Below, one piece after another: positions 24,920-33,460 of a DNA stretch of 33,460 nt. The position numbers were made by a program, and so were the translations under genes. Position 1 is the stretch's first letter; every line of letters starts with the position of its first letter. Under the pieces are notes generated by a model, which worked only from the letters and a program-made list of their open reading frames with translations, made no database searches and had not been told where the DNA came from. Source of the stretch: a bacterium (GTDB lineage Bacteria > Patescibacteriota > Minisyncoccia > UBA6257 > GWB1-50-10); contig NZBZ01000021.1 of assembly GCA_002686365.1 (NCBI GenBank), positions 1 to 33,460 of the forward strand. The letters run 5' to 3'.

Positions 24920-26695
24920 TTATACCACCTCGGCTTGGTAGCAAGCCTCGCAATAGATGATTTCCTTGCGGTCTGGGGCAAATGCTGTTTGGAATTTGTT
25001 TTCACAGTGTTCTTTGCTGTGATGCATGTGGTTTGCAATGTTTTTGTAGATATTTGAATCGTCTTTTTCTCCTGCACACGTGCAGGCACGGTCGTAGAGT
25101 TTCATAGTATTGCGTTTTTTTATGCGTTCGTAATGTCTGCAGGAGACGCAGAGGTGTGGGATGGGCAAATTGAATCGTTTTAGGAATTGTAGTTCTTGTG
25201 GAATGATTTTGAAGGCTCCGGCGCACTCGTGGCTGCAGTTTTGTTTGTGTTCGCACTCGAGTATTTCTTTTAGGATGCTTTCATCTACGTCTTTTATATT
25301 GTCCGGAATGTTTTCGGCTTGGATTGTTGCTGGGTGCTGTGGTTTTTTTGTGTCTTTCCAATTAAATCCTTGGGCAAGCGCTTCTTCTTTTTTCAATGGG
25401 AAGTGTTCCTGATTTATGGTTTCGTTATATCCAAATATAGAGAATTCTGCTGGAAAGAATTCTCCATACTTATAAACTCTCCCCCCTTGTCTTTAAAGGG
25501 CATTTTGTCCATGTGTCGTTTTATTTTTTGAACAAGTTCTTTATATTCTTCCTTCGAGTACTGTTTGTTTAGGATGCAGTACTGGTCATTTCTTAATGAG
25601 ACACAGCCAAAGCAGTCTGATGAGGATTTGCAGTATTCAGCGTATTCAAGGTTTTGGCAGTTTATGTATGTTTGTATGCAGAATTTGCAGTTATATGTTT
25701 GTCCTCCTAATACTATGCCCTCATAGCAGAGCGTTAAATTGTCTCCATATATGGTTACGTCGTAAGAATCTTTTTGGGGTCCGAAGGCAAGGTATTGGCA
25801 GTAGCGGAGATCTTCTCCTCCGACATTCCAGTAAGAATCTTTTACGTTTTTTGAATTGTATATGTATTCTCCGCTCACATTTACTGATTTTGTTCCGTCA
25901 GACCTATATTTGTTTGGAAATTGGAGATGAAGTTTTTCTGTTTTTTCTTTGATCTCCTGTATGTTTTTATGCGAGCCGTTTAGGAGTTCCTGTATCTTTT
26001 CTTCATACTCTTTTTTTTTCATATGGCTTGTTAAATATGTAGTAGTGTTTTTTTCGTAGATTTGTGCATCCAAAGCAGTTTGTGCATCCCCATACGTTTT
26101 TGGAGAAATAAATGTCTGTTGACTGAACAGCATATTCAGAAAAGAATACCCTGCTTGATTCTGCTGAGTTTATTGTTTCGTATGCAAGCTCGCAGTCTTC
26201 TATGTGGGAGTTATCAAATGATGTTTTGTATCTAACTATTCCATTCCCATACGCGCAATCTTCTGAGTATGATGTGTTGAATAATAGGTAGCAGTTTTTT
26301 GTCTCTGATGCATTGTTGCAGTAGTCACTGTTCTCTAAGAGAAATGCGGATTTTGCCGGCTTTGGAGTTTTGTTTGAGAGTTCTAGGAACTGTTCAAAGA
26401 ATGGGCGATTCCAATCATAGTCTTGTGCATAATCTTTTGCATCCCAGTCATCGGAGAGCCATTCTTTTAGTGTATATACAGGAAACGGCACGCTTTCAGG
26501 AAATGTTGAGAAGATGGTTTTTTTGGAGAGGTCGCTTTTTCGTTTGTGGAGTGGGCGGTCGTCTCTAAACGCCATCCTGCGTTGTGCGCGGCATAGGTAG
26601 CAAAAGGTTGGATGCGGCACACCTACCTTCTTGTAGAAGTTTTGGTCGTCAGAGTCGATTTCGAAATCTTTTTTACAGTTTTGGCAGTTGGGCAT
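24920..26695 (-). pseudogene. Cys-rich paralog A, disrupted by two compensating homopolymer indels
   Basis: ORFs 26003-26695, 25414-26133 and 24920-25396 align consecutively with paralogs B and C. Breaks lie at A9 and G6 runs; first and third ORFs share a frame; total 1776 nt matches intact paralogs. Confidence 0.8.
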
Positions 26696-26700
26696 GGTTT

Positions 26701-28467
26701 TTATGATGTTTCAGCTTGGTAACATTTCTCACAGTATATTATTTCTTTCCTGTCCGGAGAATATGCAGTTTCGAATTCCTTTGGGCAGTGGTCTACGCCG
26801 TGGTGCGAGTGAGTAGATGTATTTTGGTATACTTCGTTTTCGGATTTTTCTCCAGCACATTGACATTTGCGGTGCCAGAGATTTATCGGGTTTTTAAGGC
26901 GGACTCGTTCCATGTGGCGGCACTGCGGGCAGAGTCGCGGGAGTGGTACTCCGAGGCGACGATAGAAAGTAAGCTCTTGTGGGAGAATTTTGAAGGCGGT
27001 GGCGCACGGTTCGGTGCATGTCCCGCCGTGTGCGCATCCTATAATTTGTTCCGTGATGGAATCTTTGGCGTCCTCTATGTCATCTGTAATGGAATCAATG
27101 GGCAGTGTGATGGTGTACTTTTTTGTTTCGGGTTCTTGCCATGCGCATCCGAATGATTTTGCTGCTTCTTTTGTTTTCGGATAGTAATCCTGCGCAAGGG
27201 TTTCGTTGTAGGCGAACGGAGAAAGGTCTGTTGGGAAAAATTCTCCGTACGAATATACCCTTCCTTTTTTGTCCGTGTATGTTTTTTCTTTCATCTGTTT
27301 GATGATTTTTGGAACAAGTTCCTCGTACTCTTCTTTGGAATACTGCTTGTTGAATATACAGTATTCTTTGCTTCGCAAGCCAACGCAACCGAAAATATGA
27401 TTCGAGTCAAAACAGTTGTAGGAATATTGTACGTCGAACCCTCCCCATATGAACGCCGAGTACTTCACGTTTTGCGCCGTTACGCTTACTGCTTCGTAGA
27501 ATAATTCTGCGCCGTTCCATACTATGAAAGCGTCCGCACCGTCTTTTACTCCTTGGTGGAGACGGAATCCGTATCTACAGTTTTCTATATCATTTCGTGC
27601 ATTGAAGCACCAGTATAGATTTCGACTGTTGGTAATGTCGTCGCCCAGCACATTTTCTGATTTTAGGATTGCGGCGAATTTGCGGGGAGTTTTTGTTTTC
27701 AGCTTTTTAAACGTTTGTTGAGCATTTTGTACTCCTGAGAATGTTCCGAGTCGGAGTTTTGAAAGGCGTTTTTTGTATTCTTCTTTTGAAAGTTTTTCGT
27801 TGAAGATGTAGTGGCTTTTGTTCCGCAGGCCAACACATCCAACGCAGTCTGAGCAGTTTATGCAGTCATAGAGTAACCATGAGTCGGTGCAGTTTGTGCA
27901 AGCTTCGGAAAATCGGAGTTTTGATGAGTTTGTGCAGTCAAGGATTTCGTAGCACAACTCGACTTTATGGGACTGATGGACATCGAGGCATTCTCTTGCG
28001 CCCAGTACGGCCCCGAATGAGTACATGCAGTCTTCGGCGGTGTCCGTGCTCGCTACGAAATAGCAGTTTTTTGTATTTAGCGTATAGTTTGCGTATTCGC
28101 TATTTATGAGATTTTTTTGAATAAGGTTCGGATGGGGAGTTTTTTGGAAGAGTTTTTTAAACTGCTCGAAGAAGGATTTTGAGAAGTCATATTCTTTTCC
28201 GTATTCGAGCGGGTCCCATTTATCGCTTTTCCAGTATTCGTTGTTGTAGACGGTAAACGGCGAGTCCTCGCGAAACATGGAAAGCATAGATCCTCCTGTG
28301 GCGTCGCATGTCCTTCGGTGCCATGTTCGTTCGTTTCGAAAGAGGAGGCGTCGGATCATTCGGCACTCTGGGCACCAGGTTGGTTCTGGGACCTCTAGTT
28401 TTTGGTAGAAGGCCTTGTCATCTTCTGTGATTTCGAAGTTTTGTTTACAGTTTTGGCAGTTTGGCAT
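26701..28467 (-). CDS. Cys-rich protein with N- and C-terminal zinc-finger-like domains, paralog B
   Basis: 588 aa; CQNCKQNFEI...FYQKLEVPEPTWCPECRMIRRLLFRNER and CTEPCATAFKI...FYRRLGVPLPRLCPQCRHMERVRLKNP...CQCAGE. Confidence 0.88.
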   Translation of the reverse strand: MPNCQNCKQNFEITEDDKAFYQKLEVPEPTWCPECRMIRRLLFRNERTWHRRTCDATGGSMLSMFREDSPFTVYNNEYWKSDKWDPLEYGKEYDFSKSFFEQFKKLFQKTPHPNLIQKNLINSEYANYTLNTKNCYFVASTDTAEDCMYSFGAVLGARECLDVHQSHKVELCYEILDCTNSSKLRFSEACTNCTDSWLLYDCINCSDCVGCVGLRNKSHYIFNEKLSKEEYKKRLSKLRLGTFSGVQNAQQTFKKLKTKTPRKFAAILKSENVLGDDITNSRNLYWCFNARNDIENCRYGFRLHQGVKDGADAFIVWNGAELFYEAVSVTAQNVKYSAFIWGGFDVQYSYNCFDSNHIFGCVGLRSKEYCIFNKQYSKEEYEELVPKIIKQMKEKTYTDKKGRVYSYGEFFPTDLSPFAYNETLAQDYYPKTKEAAKSFGCAWQEPETKKYTITLPIDSITDDIEDAKDSITEQIIGCAHGGTCTEPCATAFKILPQELTFYRRLGVPLPRLCPQCRHMERVRLKNPINLWHRKCQCAGEKSENEVYQNTSTHSHHGVDHCPKEFETAYSPDRKEIIYCEKCYQAETS

Positions 28468-28473
28468 GGTTTT

Positions 28474-30243
28474 TTATGATACCTCCCCTTGGTAGCATTT
28501 CTCACAATACACTATCTCTTCTCTATCTGGCGAGTATGCAGTCTCAAACTCGTTTGGACAGTGCTCTTTTTCGTGGTCTATGTGAGATGTAGTGTTTTGG
28601 TACACGTTGTTGTCGGATTTCTCGCCCGCGCATTGGCATTTGCGTTTGTGCAGCTTCTGTTTATTTACGCGCGTCATTCGTTCGTCATGCCTGCAGTCAG
28701 GGCACTTGCGTGGGAGCGGGAAGCCGAACCTTCGTAGGAGTTCCAGCTCTGGCTTGATTATTTTGAATGCTTTATTACATTCCTCACACTCAATTATCTC
28801 TTTTAACATGTTATCGCTTACGTATTTTATGCTGTCTGGAATATCTTTTGCTTTTATTGTTGGCTTGTGTTTACTCGGCTCTTGGTCATGCCACTGCCAA
28901 CCCTTTTCAAGGGCCTCTTCTTTTGTCATTGGGAAGTACTGCTTGGCAGTGGATTCGTTGTACTTGAAAGTTGAGATGTCATATGGGAGGAATTCTCCAT
29001 ACTTCCATACTCGTCCTTTTGAGTCAGTGTAGGGGCTTTCATTCATGTCTTTTATAATCTGCTCTCGGAGTTTTTTGTATTCTTCTTCCGAATACTTCTT
29101 GTTTAGGATGCAGAACTCCTTGTTTCGGAGGCTTGTGCACCCAAATATATTTTTTGAGGTGATTATATGCATGGAGTATTCAACGTTTTGCGCGACGTTC
29201 CACGCGGCAAAGCAGAATTTGATATTGCTTGTTCCTTCTCCTGATGTAATTGTGTCATAGATGAGTTCTGCGCCATTTCCCCACTCTGTTAAGTCGTAAG
29301 AGTCTTTTGTTGATGGAATGGTAAGCATTTGGCAGTATCTTGTGTCTTCAGCGTATCTTGATCTATATGTGTTCTTGGAATTTTTTGAAAAGAAAACATA
29401 TTCCCCTGAAGAATTTTTATTTTGTCGTCCATGCATGAACTTGTTTGGGTATTTCAGCCAGTGCTCTCTGGCTTTCTTTTTTAATTCTTCGATTGATTTG
29501 TAGGAGTCGAGCTTGAATTCTTTTATCTTTTCCTCGTACTCCTCTTTTGTGTATGGTTCATTCCATATGTGGTACTTCTGCTTGCGTAGATTTGAGCAGC
29601 CAAAGCAGTTGTCGCACCCTATGAGGTCTTTTGAGAAGTAGACGTCTTGGCACCCTTGGCAGTCTTCAGAAAAGAAGACGCGGGAGCTTTTTCCAGTGTT
29701 TACAATTTGATAGCAGAGCTGGGATTCTCCGCACATTATGACATCCATAGAGTCTTTTACAGTTATCACCATTTCGGAGTATAGGACGTTTTCACAGAAG
29801 TCAGCATTACATATTAGATAGCAGTTTTTGCAGCTGCCAGCGTGAGTTAGGTATTCGCTGTTTACAAGGTTTGGGGTGTCTACAATAAGTGACATGAATG
29901 GCGTTTTGAGTGTCAGTTCTTTTAGCTGGTCAAAGAATTTTTTGTTTGGGTCATAGTCCTGTCCAAATTCCAGCTGGTCCCACTTGTCAGAATACCAGCA
30001 TGGATTGCAGTAGACTGTATAGGGCTTGTCTGGAGAGAAGGAGCTTACCATGTCTTTTTCGCATAGATCGCATTTGCGTTTGTAAAGGGCGCGTTCATTG
30101 CGAAACATGAGGCGGCGTTGGTATCTGCAGTCTGGACAGAAGGTTGGGGGCGGAACCTGTACTTTTTCATAGAACGCAAAGTCATCTGACTCTATTACAA
30201 AGTCAGCTTTGCAGTTTTGACAGGTTTTGGTTTCGGTTTGCAT
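28474..30243 (-). CDS. Cys-rich zinc-finger-like protein, paralog C
   Basis: 589 aa, same architecture as B. Confidence 0.88.
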   Translation of the reverse strand: MQTETKTCQNCKADFVIESDDFAFYEKVQVPPPTFCPDCRYQRRLMFRNERALYKRKCDLCEKDMVSSFSPDKPYTVYCNPCWYSDKWDQLEFGQDYDPNKKFFDQLKELTLKTPFMSLIVDTPNLVNSEYLTHAGSCKNCYLICNADFCENVLYSEMVITVKDSMDVIMCGESQLCYQIVNTGKSSRVFFSEDCQGCQDVYFSKDLIGCDNCFGCSNLRKQKYHIWNEPYTKEEYEEKIKEFKLDSYKSIEELKKKAREHWLKYPNKFMHGRQNKNSSGEYVFFSKNSKNTYRSRYAEDTRYCQMLTIPSTKDSYDLTEWGNGAELIYDTITSGEGTSNIKFCFAAWNVAQNVEYSMHIITSKNIFGCTSLRNKEFCILNKKYSEEEYKKLREQIIKDMNESPYTDSKGRVWKYGEFLPYDISTFKYNESTAKQYFPMTKEEALEKGWQWHDQEPSKHKPTIKAKDIPDSIKYVSDNMLKEIIECEECNKAFKIIKPELELLRRFGFPLPRKCPDCRHDERMTRVNKQKLHKRKCQCAGEKSDNNVYQNTTSHIDHEKEHCPNEFETAYSPDREEIVYCEKCYQGEVS

Positions 30244-30244
30244 G

Positions 30245-30311
30245 TTAGTTTATCTCTTTAAGGTAGCACTCCTCGCCCTTCGATTCGCTCAGGACTTCGG
30301 CTTGCTTTCAT
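30245..30311. repeat. Palindromic insert plus duplicated gene tail in the D/C spacer
   Basis: 30245-30274 matches the 3' end of D (30313-30342) at 25 of 30 positions and encodes EECYLKEIN*; 30276-30311 carries CCCTTCGATTCGCTCAGGACTTCGGCTTGCTTTCAT. Confidence 0.65.
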
Positions 30312-30312
30312 A

Positions 30313-32037
30313 TTAATTAATTTCTTTAAGGTAGCAAGCCTCGCATAGTATGTTCAACTTTTTCTGTTTCTCTGGCGGATAGACGCTCCATGTTTTTTTA
30401 CTGCATTTTGGGCAGGCAAATGGGAATAGCCAGAGATTGTGGTCTTGCGCTGCTCTTTTTAGTATTCGTTTGAATGGATGAATGGTTGGTATTGGAATGT
30501 TCATTTTGCGGTAGAAGGCAAGTTCGTTTTTTGTGATTCGGAATGGTTTCTTTGTTATTTCACAGATTATTGCTTTTTCTAATATGGAGTTGTCTATGTC
30601 TTGTATGTTTTCTGGAATTTCATTTGGCGCTTGGAGCTGCTGCATTTTTTCCGGGATTTCAGATTCGGGCTCTTCATACCATGGAATTTCTTTTTCCATC
30701 GCTTCTTTTTTGGTTATTGGGAAGTAGAGTTGGGAGCTGCTGCCCTGGTGTGGCATGAGTCCGAGTTTTGTTGGAAAGAATTCTCCGTACTCTTCCCTTT
30801 CGAGCATTTTTGTTTTTATGCTGTCTACTTTTTTATAGTATTCGCTTTCCTCATATGGTTTGTTGAAAATATGAAATTGTTTGTTTTTTAGTCCTATACA
30901 TCCAAAGCAGTTGTGACAGTTGTAGCATTCTATGCAGTACTCTAGAAATGTTCCTTCTCTCACCTGAAGACAGAATTTTGTATTGTGCGCTGTTCCTGAT
31001 GTTATTTCGTAAGTGTATTCGCTGATGGTGCCTACTACGTCCATTACATTTTTTGCTCTTGCAAATATTGTAGAAAAGCGCGCGTTTTCAGAGTTTTCTG
31101 AACGAAATGTAAAGTAACAGTTTTTGCAGTTTGTGAGATAGTCTCCAACACAGTTTTCCACATTGATATTTTTTGTCGCCCGATGAGTTGATTCTTGTAT
31201 AAGTTTTTGGAATTTTTGTATGTACTCGTTACGAATAGATCTTTTCCCGAGACCTATATTTTTTATCTTTTTTTCGTATTCTTTTTTTGAGAGCTGTTTA
31301 TTTTCAAAAATGTAAGATTTATTTCTAAGATTGGCAGATAGGAAGCAGTTTTGACAGTTTTTACAGTCGAATAGAAATAATGATTCGAGACAGTTTGAGC
31401 ATTCTGTTATGTGTTGGCACTTACTGCAGTGGTCTGAACCAATTGATTCGTAGCATAGTTCGGAATCTCTTGTATTGTGGCAGTCAATGAGATTGCGGGA
31501 GTATCGTATTTCGTAGCAGTAGGTAAGATCTTCTGACTCAACTGCTCCCCCGCTAAAATAGACGCTTGATGTTTTTAGTCCTCCTAGGCTGTAGTCGGTA
31601 TTTGTTCCTTTTGGGTCCCGTTCCATTGGTAGGTGGGGTATGCTGAAGAAGAGGTTTTTAAATTCTTCGAAAAATGGTTTTGATTCATCGTATTCTCGCG
31701 CGTATTCTATTGCATCCCAGTTGTCTCCATGCCAGTAGTGAAAGTCGTATATTTTGTGTTTTGTTTCAGGCGGGAAGATTGTCAGGATTTTTTTCTTGTC
31801 TTTCATTGCAGACTCTTTTTTGAAAAATCTTGGCATTCTGATGTGGTGGCTAAGGCGGCGTTTTAATCTGCAGAGTGGGCAGTGAGTTGGAGGCGGGACT
31901 CTGACCATTTTATAGAAATCAATATCTCCCTGCTCTATGCGAAATTTTTCTTTACATTCTTTGCAGATTTTTTCTAGGGGCCTTAGGTCTTTTAGGATTT
32001 TATTGAGAGCTTTGTCGAAGTTTGGAGTATTAGTCAT
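30313..32037 (-). CDS. Divergent Cys-rich paralog D
   Basis: 574 aa; CKECKEKFRIEQGDIDFYKMVRVPPPTHCPLCRLKRRL and beta-rung core retained; C-terminal cap diverged. Confidence 0.85.
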   Translation of the reverse strand: MTNTPNFDKALNKILKDLRPLEKICKECKEKFRIEQGDIDFYKMVRVPPPTHCPLCRLKRRLSHHIRMPRFFKKESAMKDKKKILTIFPPETKHKIYDFHYWHGDNWDAIEYAREYDESKPFFEEFKNLFFSIPHLPMERDPKGTNTDYSLGGLKTSSVYFSGGAVESEDLTYCYEIRYSRNLIDCHNTRDSELCYESIGSDHCSKCQHITECSNCLESLFLFDCKNCQNCFLSANLRNKSYIFENKQLSKKEYEKKIKNIGLGKRSIRNEYIQKFQKLIQESTHRATKNINVENCVGDYLTNCKNCYFTFRSENSENARFSTIFARAKNVMDVVGTISEYTYEITSGTAHNTKFCLQVREGTFLEYCIECYNCHNCFGCIGLKNKQFHIFNKPYEESEYYKKVDSIKTKMLEREEYGEFFPTKLGLMPHQGSSSQLYFPITKKEAMEKEIPWYEEPESEIPEKMQQLQAPNEIPENIQDIDNSILEKAIICEITKKPFRITKNELAFYRKMNIPIPTIHPFKRILKRAAQDHNLWLFPFACPKCSKKTWSVYPPEKQKKLNILCEACYLKEIN

Positions 32038-32052
32038 ATTTTAGTTGTGTCT

Positions 32053-32119
32053 CTAGGCTACCTCATTGTTGTAGTACTGCTCGCACTTCGATTCGCTCAG
32101 TACTTCGGCTTGCTTTCAT
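32053..32119. repeat. Palindromic insert plus degenerate gene tail in the E/D spacer
   Basis: GCACTTCGATTCGCTCAGTACTTCGGCTTGCTTTCAT (32083-32119) closely matches the D/C insert; 32053-32082 encodes EQYYNNEVA*, resembling E's EACYQQEVN*. Confidence 0.55.
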
Positions 32120-33460
32120 TTAATTAACCTCTTGTTGGTAGCAAGCCTCGCAATAGATGGTTTCCGGCCTATCTGGGGCGTATGTTGTTTCAAATTCATT
32201 CGGACAGTGTTCTTTGTCGTGGTGAGAATGGTTGGTGGTGTTTTTGTATACGTTGTTTTCTGATGATTCGCCTGCGCAATGGCATTTACGATGGTGAAGT
32301 TTTGGAAGGCCTACAAGGCGTACTCGGGCAAAGTGTCTGCAGTTTGAACAGAGGCGCGGAAGAGGGATTCCTAGTTTTTTGTACAGTTGAAGTTCTTCCT
32401 TTGTTATCTTGAAGGCGGTTGTGCATTTTTCTTTACACTCACCTTTGTGTTCGCATTCGATAACTTCGCCGAGGATGTCTTCTTTTATTTCGTTTATGTT
32501 GTCTGGGAGGTCTTTGGTATGTTTTGTGATGCCGTAGTTTTTCTTTTCTTCTTCTTTCCAGGTGTATCCTTTCTTTTCTGCTTCATTTTTTGTCAAAGGT
32601 TCGTACTCTTGGGCTACGGTTTCGTTATAGGCAAATGGTGAGATTTCGATTGGAAAGAATTCTCCATACTTATATTCTTTTTTGTTATTTCCTTTGTATG
32701 GCATTTTGTTCATGTGCGTGATGATTTTTGGAACAAGTTCTTCATATTCTTCTTTGGAGTACTGCTTATTTAGGATGCAGTATTCTTTGCTCCGAATGGA
32801 AACGCAGCCAAAGCAGTTTTTTGAGCCGTGACATCCATAGGTATATGTAGTGTTTGTGCTTCCCCAAGTAAATACGGCAAAAAGGTTTTTTGTTCCCTGG
32901 TCTCCGGAGTCAGTAACTTCATAGAGCAGTTCTGCGGTTGCTCCTACTCCATATCCATCATATAGGTCTTTTATAGGACCTACGCCGTTTACAATAAATT
33001 TGCTGTCTTCGGTTTCTTTTTTTACGTCAAAGCAGAATTTGGAGTTATTAACATAGAATAAGTTGTCTTCTGTTGAGTCTTGGGAGTTAGACATTCTTGC
33101 AAACTTGTGCGGGAACTGGAGTTTTGTTTTTTCGAATTCTTTTTTTGCCTGCTCGAGGTTTTTGTAGCTTCCAATGCCTAGCTCTTCAAGTTTTTTTGTG
33201 TAGTTTTCTTTTGAATATGGCTTGTTAAAGATGTGGTATTGCTTATTGCGGAGCCCTACACAGCCAAAGCAGTAGGAGCACCCCTTGCAGTTAAATAATA
33301 GCGTGGAATTGTTACAGGCTTCGGAGTTTTGTATGAATTTGCATTCGTATAATTTGTCAGAAGATATTGCCTGATAGGTGAGCTCGGATTCGCTTACTCC
33401 CAGAACGTCCATTGTGTCTTTGTTGTTGATTGTTCTGGCGGAATATAAGATGTTTTCTCC
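32120..33460 (-). CDS. Cys-rich zinc-finger-like paralog E, N-terminus outside the window
   Basis: Open frame continues past 33412 to the window edge (GENILYSARTINNKDTMDVLG); same core and C-terminal cap as B and C. Confidence 0.85.
   Translation of the reverse strand, partial: GENILYSARTINNKDTMDVLGVSESELTYQAISSDKLYECKFIQNSEACNNSTLLFNCKGCSYCFGCVGLRNKQYHIFNKPYSKENYTKKLEELGIGSYKNLEQAKKEFEKTKLQFPHKFARMSNSQDSTEDNLFYVNNSKFCFDVKKETEDSKFIVNGVGPIKDLYDGYGVGATAELLYEVTDSGDQGTKNLFAVFTWGSTNTTYTYGCHGSKNCFGCVSIRSKEYCILNKQYSKEEYEELVPKIITHMNKMPYKGNNKKEYKYGEFFPIEISPFAYNETVAQEYEPLTKNEAEKKGYTWKEEEKKNYGITKHTKDLPDNINEIKEDILGEVIECEHKGECKEKCTTAFKITKEELQLYKKLGIPLPRLCSNCRHFARVRLVGLPKLHHRKCHCAGESSENNVYKNTTNHSHHDKEHCPNEFETTYAPDRPETIYCEACYQQEVN

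Follow-up and report, generated by a model that had tools for sequence, protein, structure and literature searches.

Why does one gene of a tandem array, gene A, change its reading frame twice, once at an A9 run and once at a G6 run, and should it be regarded as switched, recoded, decaying or misread? The window, by which we mean the whole stretch of DNA analysed (33,460 nucleotides), is contig C21 of a genome of 888 kb in 21 contigs which, to judge by its relatives, is metagenome-assembled. Five tandem members of one protein family, A to E, lie on the minus strand between 24920 and 33460, and for the split of A an initial annotation had offered four explanations: phase variation, slippage at A9, early pseudogenisation, and sequencing or assembly error. 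Most likely the split is ordinary gene decay in which a redundant copy has just been inactivated, and we put the probability that A is a very recently inactivated copy of an amplified cysteine-rich, zinc-finger-like family, broken via slipped-strand indels, at roughly 0.6. The features concerned are:

24920-26695, minus strand: gene A, 1.77 kb, in three ORFs
26003-26695, minus strand: ORF1 of A, N-terminal cysteine-rich domain and first repeat, with a TGA just past A9 (profile columns 13-239)
26011-26019, minus strand: A9 run, one base in excess for the frame
25414-26133, minus strand: ORF2 of A, second repeat, with family homology from about A9 to G6 (profile columns 234-413)
25481-25486, minus strand: G6 run, one base short for the frame
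24920-25492, minus strand: ORF3 of A (stop to stop), C-terminal cysteine-rich domain in the frame of ORF1 (profile columns 411-585)
26701-28467, minus strand: paralog B, intact, 588 aa
28474-30243, minus strand: paralog C, intact, 589 aa
30313-32037, minus strand: paralog D, intact but divergent, 574 aa
32120-33460, minus strand: paralog E, truncated at the contig end, with its N-terminus at the left end of contig C1

Since the missing N-terminus of E is found at the left end of C1, the array has seven genes or more (A to G), of which A is the last (24920-33460 of the window and positions 1-4060 of C1). The two contigs are thus very probably neighbours, the assembly having broken the array inside E. 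Altogether the genome holds about 13 copies of the family, namely 11 intact ones, E, which is cut by the contig ends, and A. The proteins are about 590 aa long, with a cysteine-rich N-terminus, two internal repeats that end in a CFGC..LR....IxNKxYxKEEY motif, and a cysteine-rich C-terminus.

Against a profile containing 132 intact paralogs, the three ORFs of A tile the family exactly over both runs and no intervening sequence is lost. Their matches to columns 13-239, 234-413 and 411-585 place the frame changes exactly at A9 and G6, which bears out the initial annotation in its central claim that A is cut by an excess of one base at the first run and a shortage of one base at the second. That observation was correct in every detail that could be checked: the runs are present on the plus strand as T9 and C6, ORF1 ends in FNKPYEKKRV and a stop right behind A9, and ORF1 and ORF3 share one frame. 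That the two indels cancel each other, however, would happen by chance about half the time and calls for no explanation. As befits a pseudogene, a full-length product of A is impossible by standard decoding, despite its homology to intact genes.

How exceptional such a break is can be read from the rest of the genome. A/T runs of at least nine occur five times in the 888 kb where a first-order Markov model predicts about 72, which makes them about 14-fold rarer than predicted across the genome as a whole. Because they are so strongly avoided, an A9 inside a gene is exceptional here, and the one in A is the longest A/T tract in any verified chromosomal gene of this genome. G/C runs of at least six, in contrast, number 143 against 167 expected, so that G6 is ordinary. 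The two runs are the longest A run and the longest G run of gene A. Among 189 intact family copies, an A/T run of eight is present in 17 and a G/C run of seven in four. Long runs were also seen on two other contigs, C12, with an unusual cluster of C8, G9, T10 and C9, and C6, with an A9 at an ORF boundary; C12 and positions 2807-3942 of C6 carry phage-like genes. That second A9, at a frame change at position 3383 of C6, was set aside, as the contig looks phage-like and a broken gene was not confirmed there.

To find split genes, the genome was aligned to 620 kb from a relative (G035). The comparison covers 277 ORFs and 282 kb of aligned coding sequence, being confined to conserved genes and requiring homology on both sides of a break. 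Gene A was the sole real frameshift split among these 277 conserved genes, and the 26 A/T8, 29 G/C6 and five G/C7 runs in the conserved aligned parts were all in frame. The other apparent splits were discarded: the one on C18 looks like an antisense shadow ORF, those on C15, C19 and C4 are short pieces in the same frame parted by a stop codon rather than by a frameshift, and those appearing in the reverse comparison were likewise not retained. The absence of any other split gene, together with runs that are all in frame, shows the break to be specific to the A locus, and two frameshifts within a gene of 1.77 kb are far above the genome background.

This result bears directly on sequencing or assembly error. 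With no other split among the 277 conserved genes, generic homopolymer miscalling is unlikely, and the genome-wide form of the error that the initial annotation had listed is improbable in so clean an assembly. With a 95% bound of at most about three errors per 282 kb, two of them in 1.77 kb would have p < about 2e-4, provided that errors are evenly spread. A local error is a different matter and constitutes the main rival to pseudogenisation, although we consider it on the unlikely side: the cells would carry an intact gene, and the consensus would be wrong at A9 and G6 through low coverage or a strain mixture near the repeat array. Both indels do fall in homopolymers of a gene that is otherwise undamaged, the array is a repeat region that breaks the assembly (the ends of C21 and C1 both fall within paralog E), and a hairpin beside G6, described below, could disturb sequencing. 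Moreover, among the bacterial pseudogenes that have been reported, many are artefacts of assembly (PMC11017572). Like those, A is frameshifted in an assembly and read from the consensus alone; unlike those, it sits in an assembly whose remainder, judged by the same 277 genes, has no excess of split genes.

What is the condition of the broken gene itself? When A is read across its breaks, 13 of the 13 highly conserved cysteines and 84 of the 86 conserved positions (those conserved in at least 85% of the 189 intact copies) are kept, and 88% of the intact paralogs keep no more conserved positions than A does. Its profile score of 777 bits falls between the 25th and the 50th percentile of the intact copies (749 and 801). 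Beyond the two indels, none of the further stops, indels or losses of conserved residues that mark an old pseudogene were found in A, though a fresh pseudogene need not show them. As A is otherwise undamaged, the break must be very recent unless it is an artefact or does no fatal harm.

Broken copies of the family are not confined to this locus. In a survey of about 200 copies, 189 were intact and about seven, A included, were broken by a small indel or a stop codon. The copies other than A are:

G025:C12 (L161, 8515-10226): shortage of one base at an A5G5 run, homologous to the G6 site of A
G025:C11: broken at a C5 run
G021:C2: broken near column 375
G001:C13: broken at an A run near column 143
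G030: broken near column 505
G018:C1: broken by a stop codon

Another apparent break, at columns 534-543 of G021:C2, turned out to be a stretch of N and was discarded. All other frameshifts, together with the G6 of A, amount to the loss of one base, and A9 alone amounts to a gain. The broken copies in G025, G021, G001, G018 and G030, most of them with a one-base loss, indicate that single copies of this family decay regularly. A broken share of about 3-4% would be expected if redundant genes decay, and errors in metagenome-assembled genomes may contribute to the count.

Early pseudogenisation is, of the four explanations in the initial annotation, the one that fits best, even if signs of decay beyond the indels are missing. 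Under this reading, two slipped-strand replication errors, a gain in the A run and a loss in the G run, would have struck the gene where it is most mutable, at these two runs, and would have been tolerated since about a dozen intact paralogs remain, several of them in the same tandem array. Three points here are inferred: the reality of the indels in the cells, their origin by replication slippage, and the absence of a full-length protein from A. Two frameshifts free of other decay do require either a very recent event or very mutable tracts, and both the intact conserved positions and the unusual hairpin after G6 count against the pseudogene reading. The closest likeness is to the frameshifted genes at A/T tracts of Blochmannia and Buchnera, in which, as in A, an otherwise intact gene is broken by a homopolymer indel, and for which recent erosion and rescue by slippage are indistinguishable from sequence alone (PMC3017870). 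Those genomes, however, are AT-rich and hold more than 100 coding A tracts of at least nine (PMC3017870), whereas the present genome strongly avoids such tracts, and A differs further in being one of about 13 copies and in having a G run as one of its two tracts.

Phase variation, in which slipped-strand mispairing at the A and G tracts would turn gene A on and off, is very unlikely. Homopolymer tracts are known contingency sites (PMC2831843), the frame of A is likewise broken at homopolymers, and the A9 does exceed every other A/T tract in the verified chromosomal genes. Yet a long tract conserved at the same place in relatives was not found among the 189 intact copies: at the homologous positions there the A run measures 2-7 bases and the G run 1-6, and none of these copies holds an A/T run above eight or a G/C run above seven. 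Moreover, unlike contingency loci, A has short tracts, two at once, both in the off state, and as both would have to revert, the switch would be an inefficient one. They are also placed about 40% and 70% of the way through the gene, whereas such tracts are enriched near the 5' end (PMC2831843). This leaves the corresponding suggestion of the initial annotation unsupported.

One feature of the locus, which the initial annotation had not seen, may keep a -1 ribosomal frameshift at G6 alive:

25432-25472, minus strand: hairpin with a 17-bp stem and a 7-nt loop, 7 nt downstream of the heptamer formed at G6, z = -3.4 against dinucleotide shuffles

Together with the next base, G6 forms the heptamer G_GGG_GGA in the frame of ORF2. 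Heptamer, 7-nt spacer and 17-bp stem thus have the layout of a -1 frameshift signal, and the shift needed at this site is indeed -1. A slippery heptamer in the zero frame with a structure 5-8 nt downstream, the spacing described for such signals (PMC4066793), is found at the G6 site only. In 149 intact copies, the longest stem at the homologous place is 11 bp, and of the 10,614 comparable heptamer positions genome-wide just 8 are followed by a stem of at least 14 bp at the same spacing. The stem is in part forced by the encoded peptide GEFFPAEFSIF, since synonymous resampling of the peptide of A reached 17 bp in 54 of 4000 cases (1.35%, p = 0.013). It should also be noted that the hairpin could equally explain the loss of a G at this site, in replication or in sequencing.

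Could A then still be decoded? Recoding at one or both sites would join ORF2 to ORF3 by a -1 frameshift at G_GGG_GGA, and the first junction would be bridged by slippage at A9 or replaced by a new start at the ATG abutting that run. We regard this as improbable, and the specific version in which A is still expressed through a hairpin-stimulated shift at G6 plus slippage or a new start at A9, homopolymer indels in an amplified family of small-genome bacteria being tolerated or even used, as very improbable. For recoding speak the heptamer in the right frame with its spacer, stem and direction, a stem that is longer than in any of the 149 intact copies and rare in the genome, and the lack of decay past the indels. 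In addition, the broken copy G025:C12, from another genus, needs a -1 shift at the position homologous to G6, where it has the in-frame heptamer A_AAG_GGG, a motif with high frameshifting in E. coli (PMC4066793). But that copy lacks such a hairpin, and given seven frameshifts over 585 columns, sharing a site with A is unremarkable (by a rough estimate, a chance of about one half); the recurring break at columns 404-411 was accordingly rejected as a programmed site. The layout of heptamer and stem is unique to A and not a conserved signal, with intact paralogs showing stems of at most 11 bp and G runs of 1-6, and the folding energies of three intact paralogs from the same genome equal that of A. 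Furthermore, the related heptamer G_GG.G_GG.U gave the lowest frameshifting reported in E. coli, 0.018% without a stimulator (PMC4066793), and a single protein would need two recoding events. Compared with the -1 signals of IS911 and the IS3 family (PMC4066793), A shares an X_XXZ_ZZN heptamer in frame, a stem 7 nt downstream and the -1 direction, but has a motif of a weak class that is not conserved and forms no more than a putative signal.

Slippage at A9, as the initial annotation had it, is weakened in its transcriptional form. A9 is an A/T run of the length, about nine or more, at which such slippage is looked for, but the change needed there is the loss of a base from the transcript, while slippage measured in bacterial transcription mostly adds bases at A/T runs and leaves G/C runs alone (PMC5574713); G6, for its part, is not an A/T run and needs a gain. 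In that study, no case was seen in which slippage restored a reading frame (PMC5574713). Rescue at A9 taken alone is not impossible, since an oligoA insertion in chloroplast atpB is partly correctable (PMC8254509).

The ends of the ORFs also bear on gene fission, by which the three ORFs would be separate working proteins with the breaks in interdomain linkers. In the fold predicted for paralog B there are linkers around residues 229-233 and 397-403, and the breaks do lie close to them; an ATG in the frame of ORF2 directly abuts A9 (26020-26022). ORF3, however, has no start before the conserved YGEFFP motif, and its sole TTG, at 25396, is inside the conserved part, which makes fission highly implausible.

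If recent pseudogenisation is correct, A adds one example to the freshly broken copies of multicopy genes, and its use is mainly as a caution against reading homopolymer indels in metagenome-assembled genomes as phase variation. If, on the other hand, the hairpin at G6 does drive frameshifting, a broken frame in such a family would not necessarily mean a dead gene. Of greater interest than the break is the family to which A belongs, which is uncharacterised, cysteine-rich and amplified to copy numbers above 20 in genomes of about 0.7-0.8 Mb. Members occur in 26 of the 42 genomes of the taxonomic family, with up to about 24 matches per genome, and a search of named genomes gave four relatives at 32-43%. 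At the DNA level, no ortholog of A was found in the 42 genomes of the family or the 244 of the order; the best match, 72% over 380 bp, lies within its own genome.

The cysteines suggest that both ends of the family proteins bind metal. The Pfam matches in the family are treble-clef zinc fingers, all under the gathering cut-off (19.5 and 18.7 bits against 24, and 18.5 against 27, for zf_Tbcl, PF13451, and zf_Tbcl_2, PF23477), among them a weak zf_Tbcl match in ORF1 of A, and NCBIfam gave no credible match. The structure predicted for paralog B from 12 sequences (pTM 0.81, mean pLDDT 78) has better predicted ends and two long, strand-poor middle regions with helices between; neither solved structures nor Foldseek gave a meaningful match. 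Weak matches of B to phage 'zinc-ribbon' proteins extend over about 50-60 residues, and searching phages with A found nothing. Viral contigs yielded one family fragment; contig L224 of IMG/VR, labelled viral, ends within a family member and is probably host DNA. Finally, a Gracilibacteria genome (L034) shows in-frame stops in every family copy under table 11; these apparent breaks were not counted as decay, as stops in all copies fit code 25, in which TGA encodes glycine.
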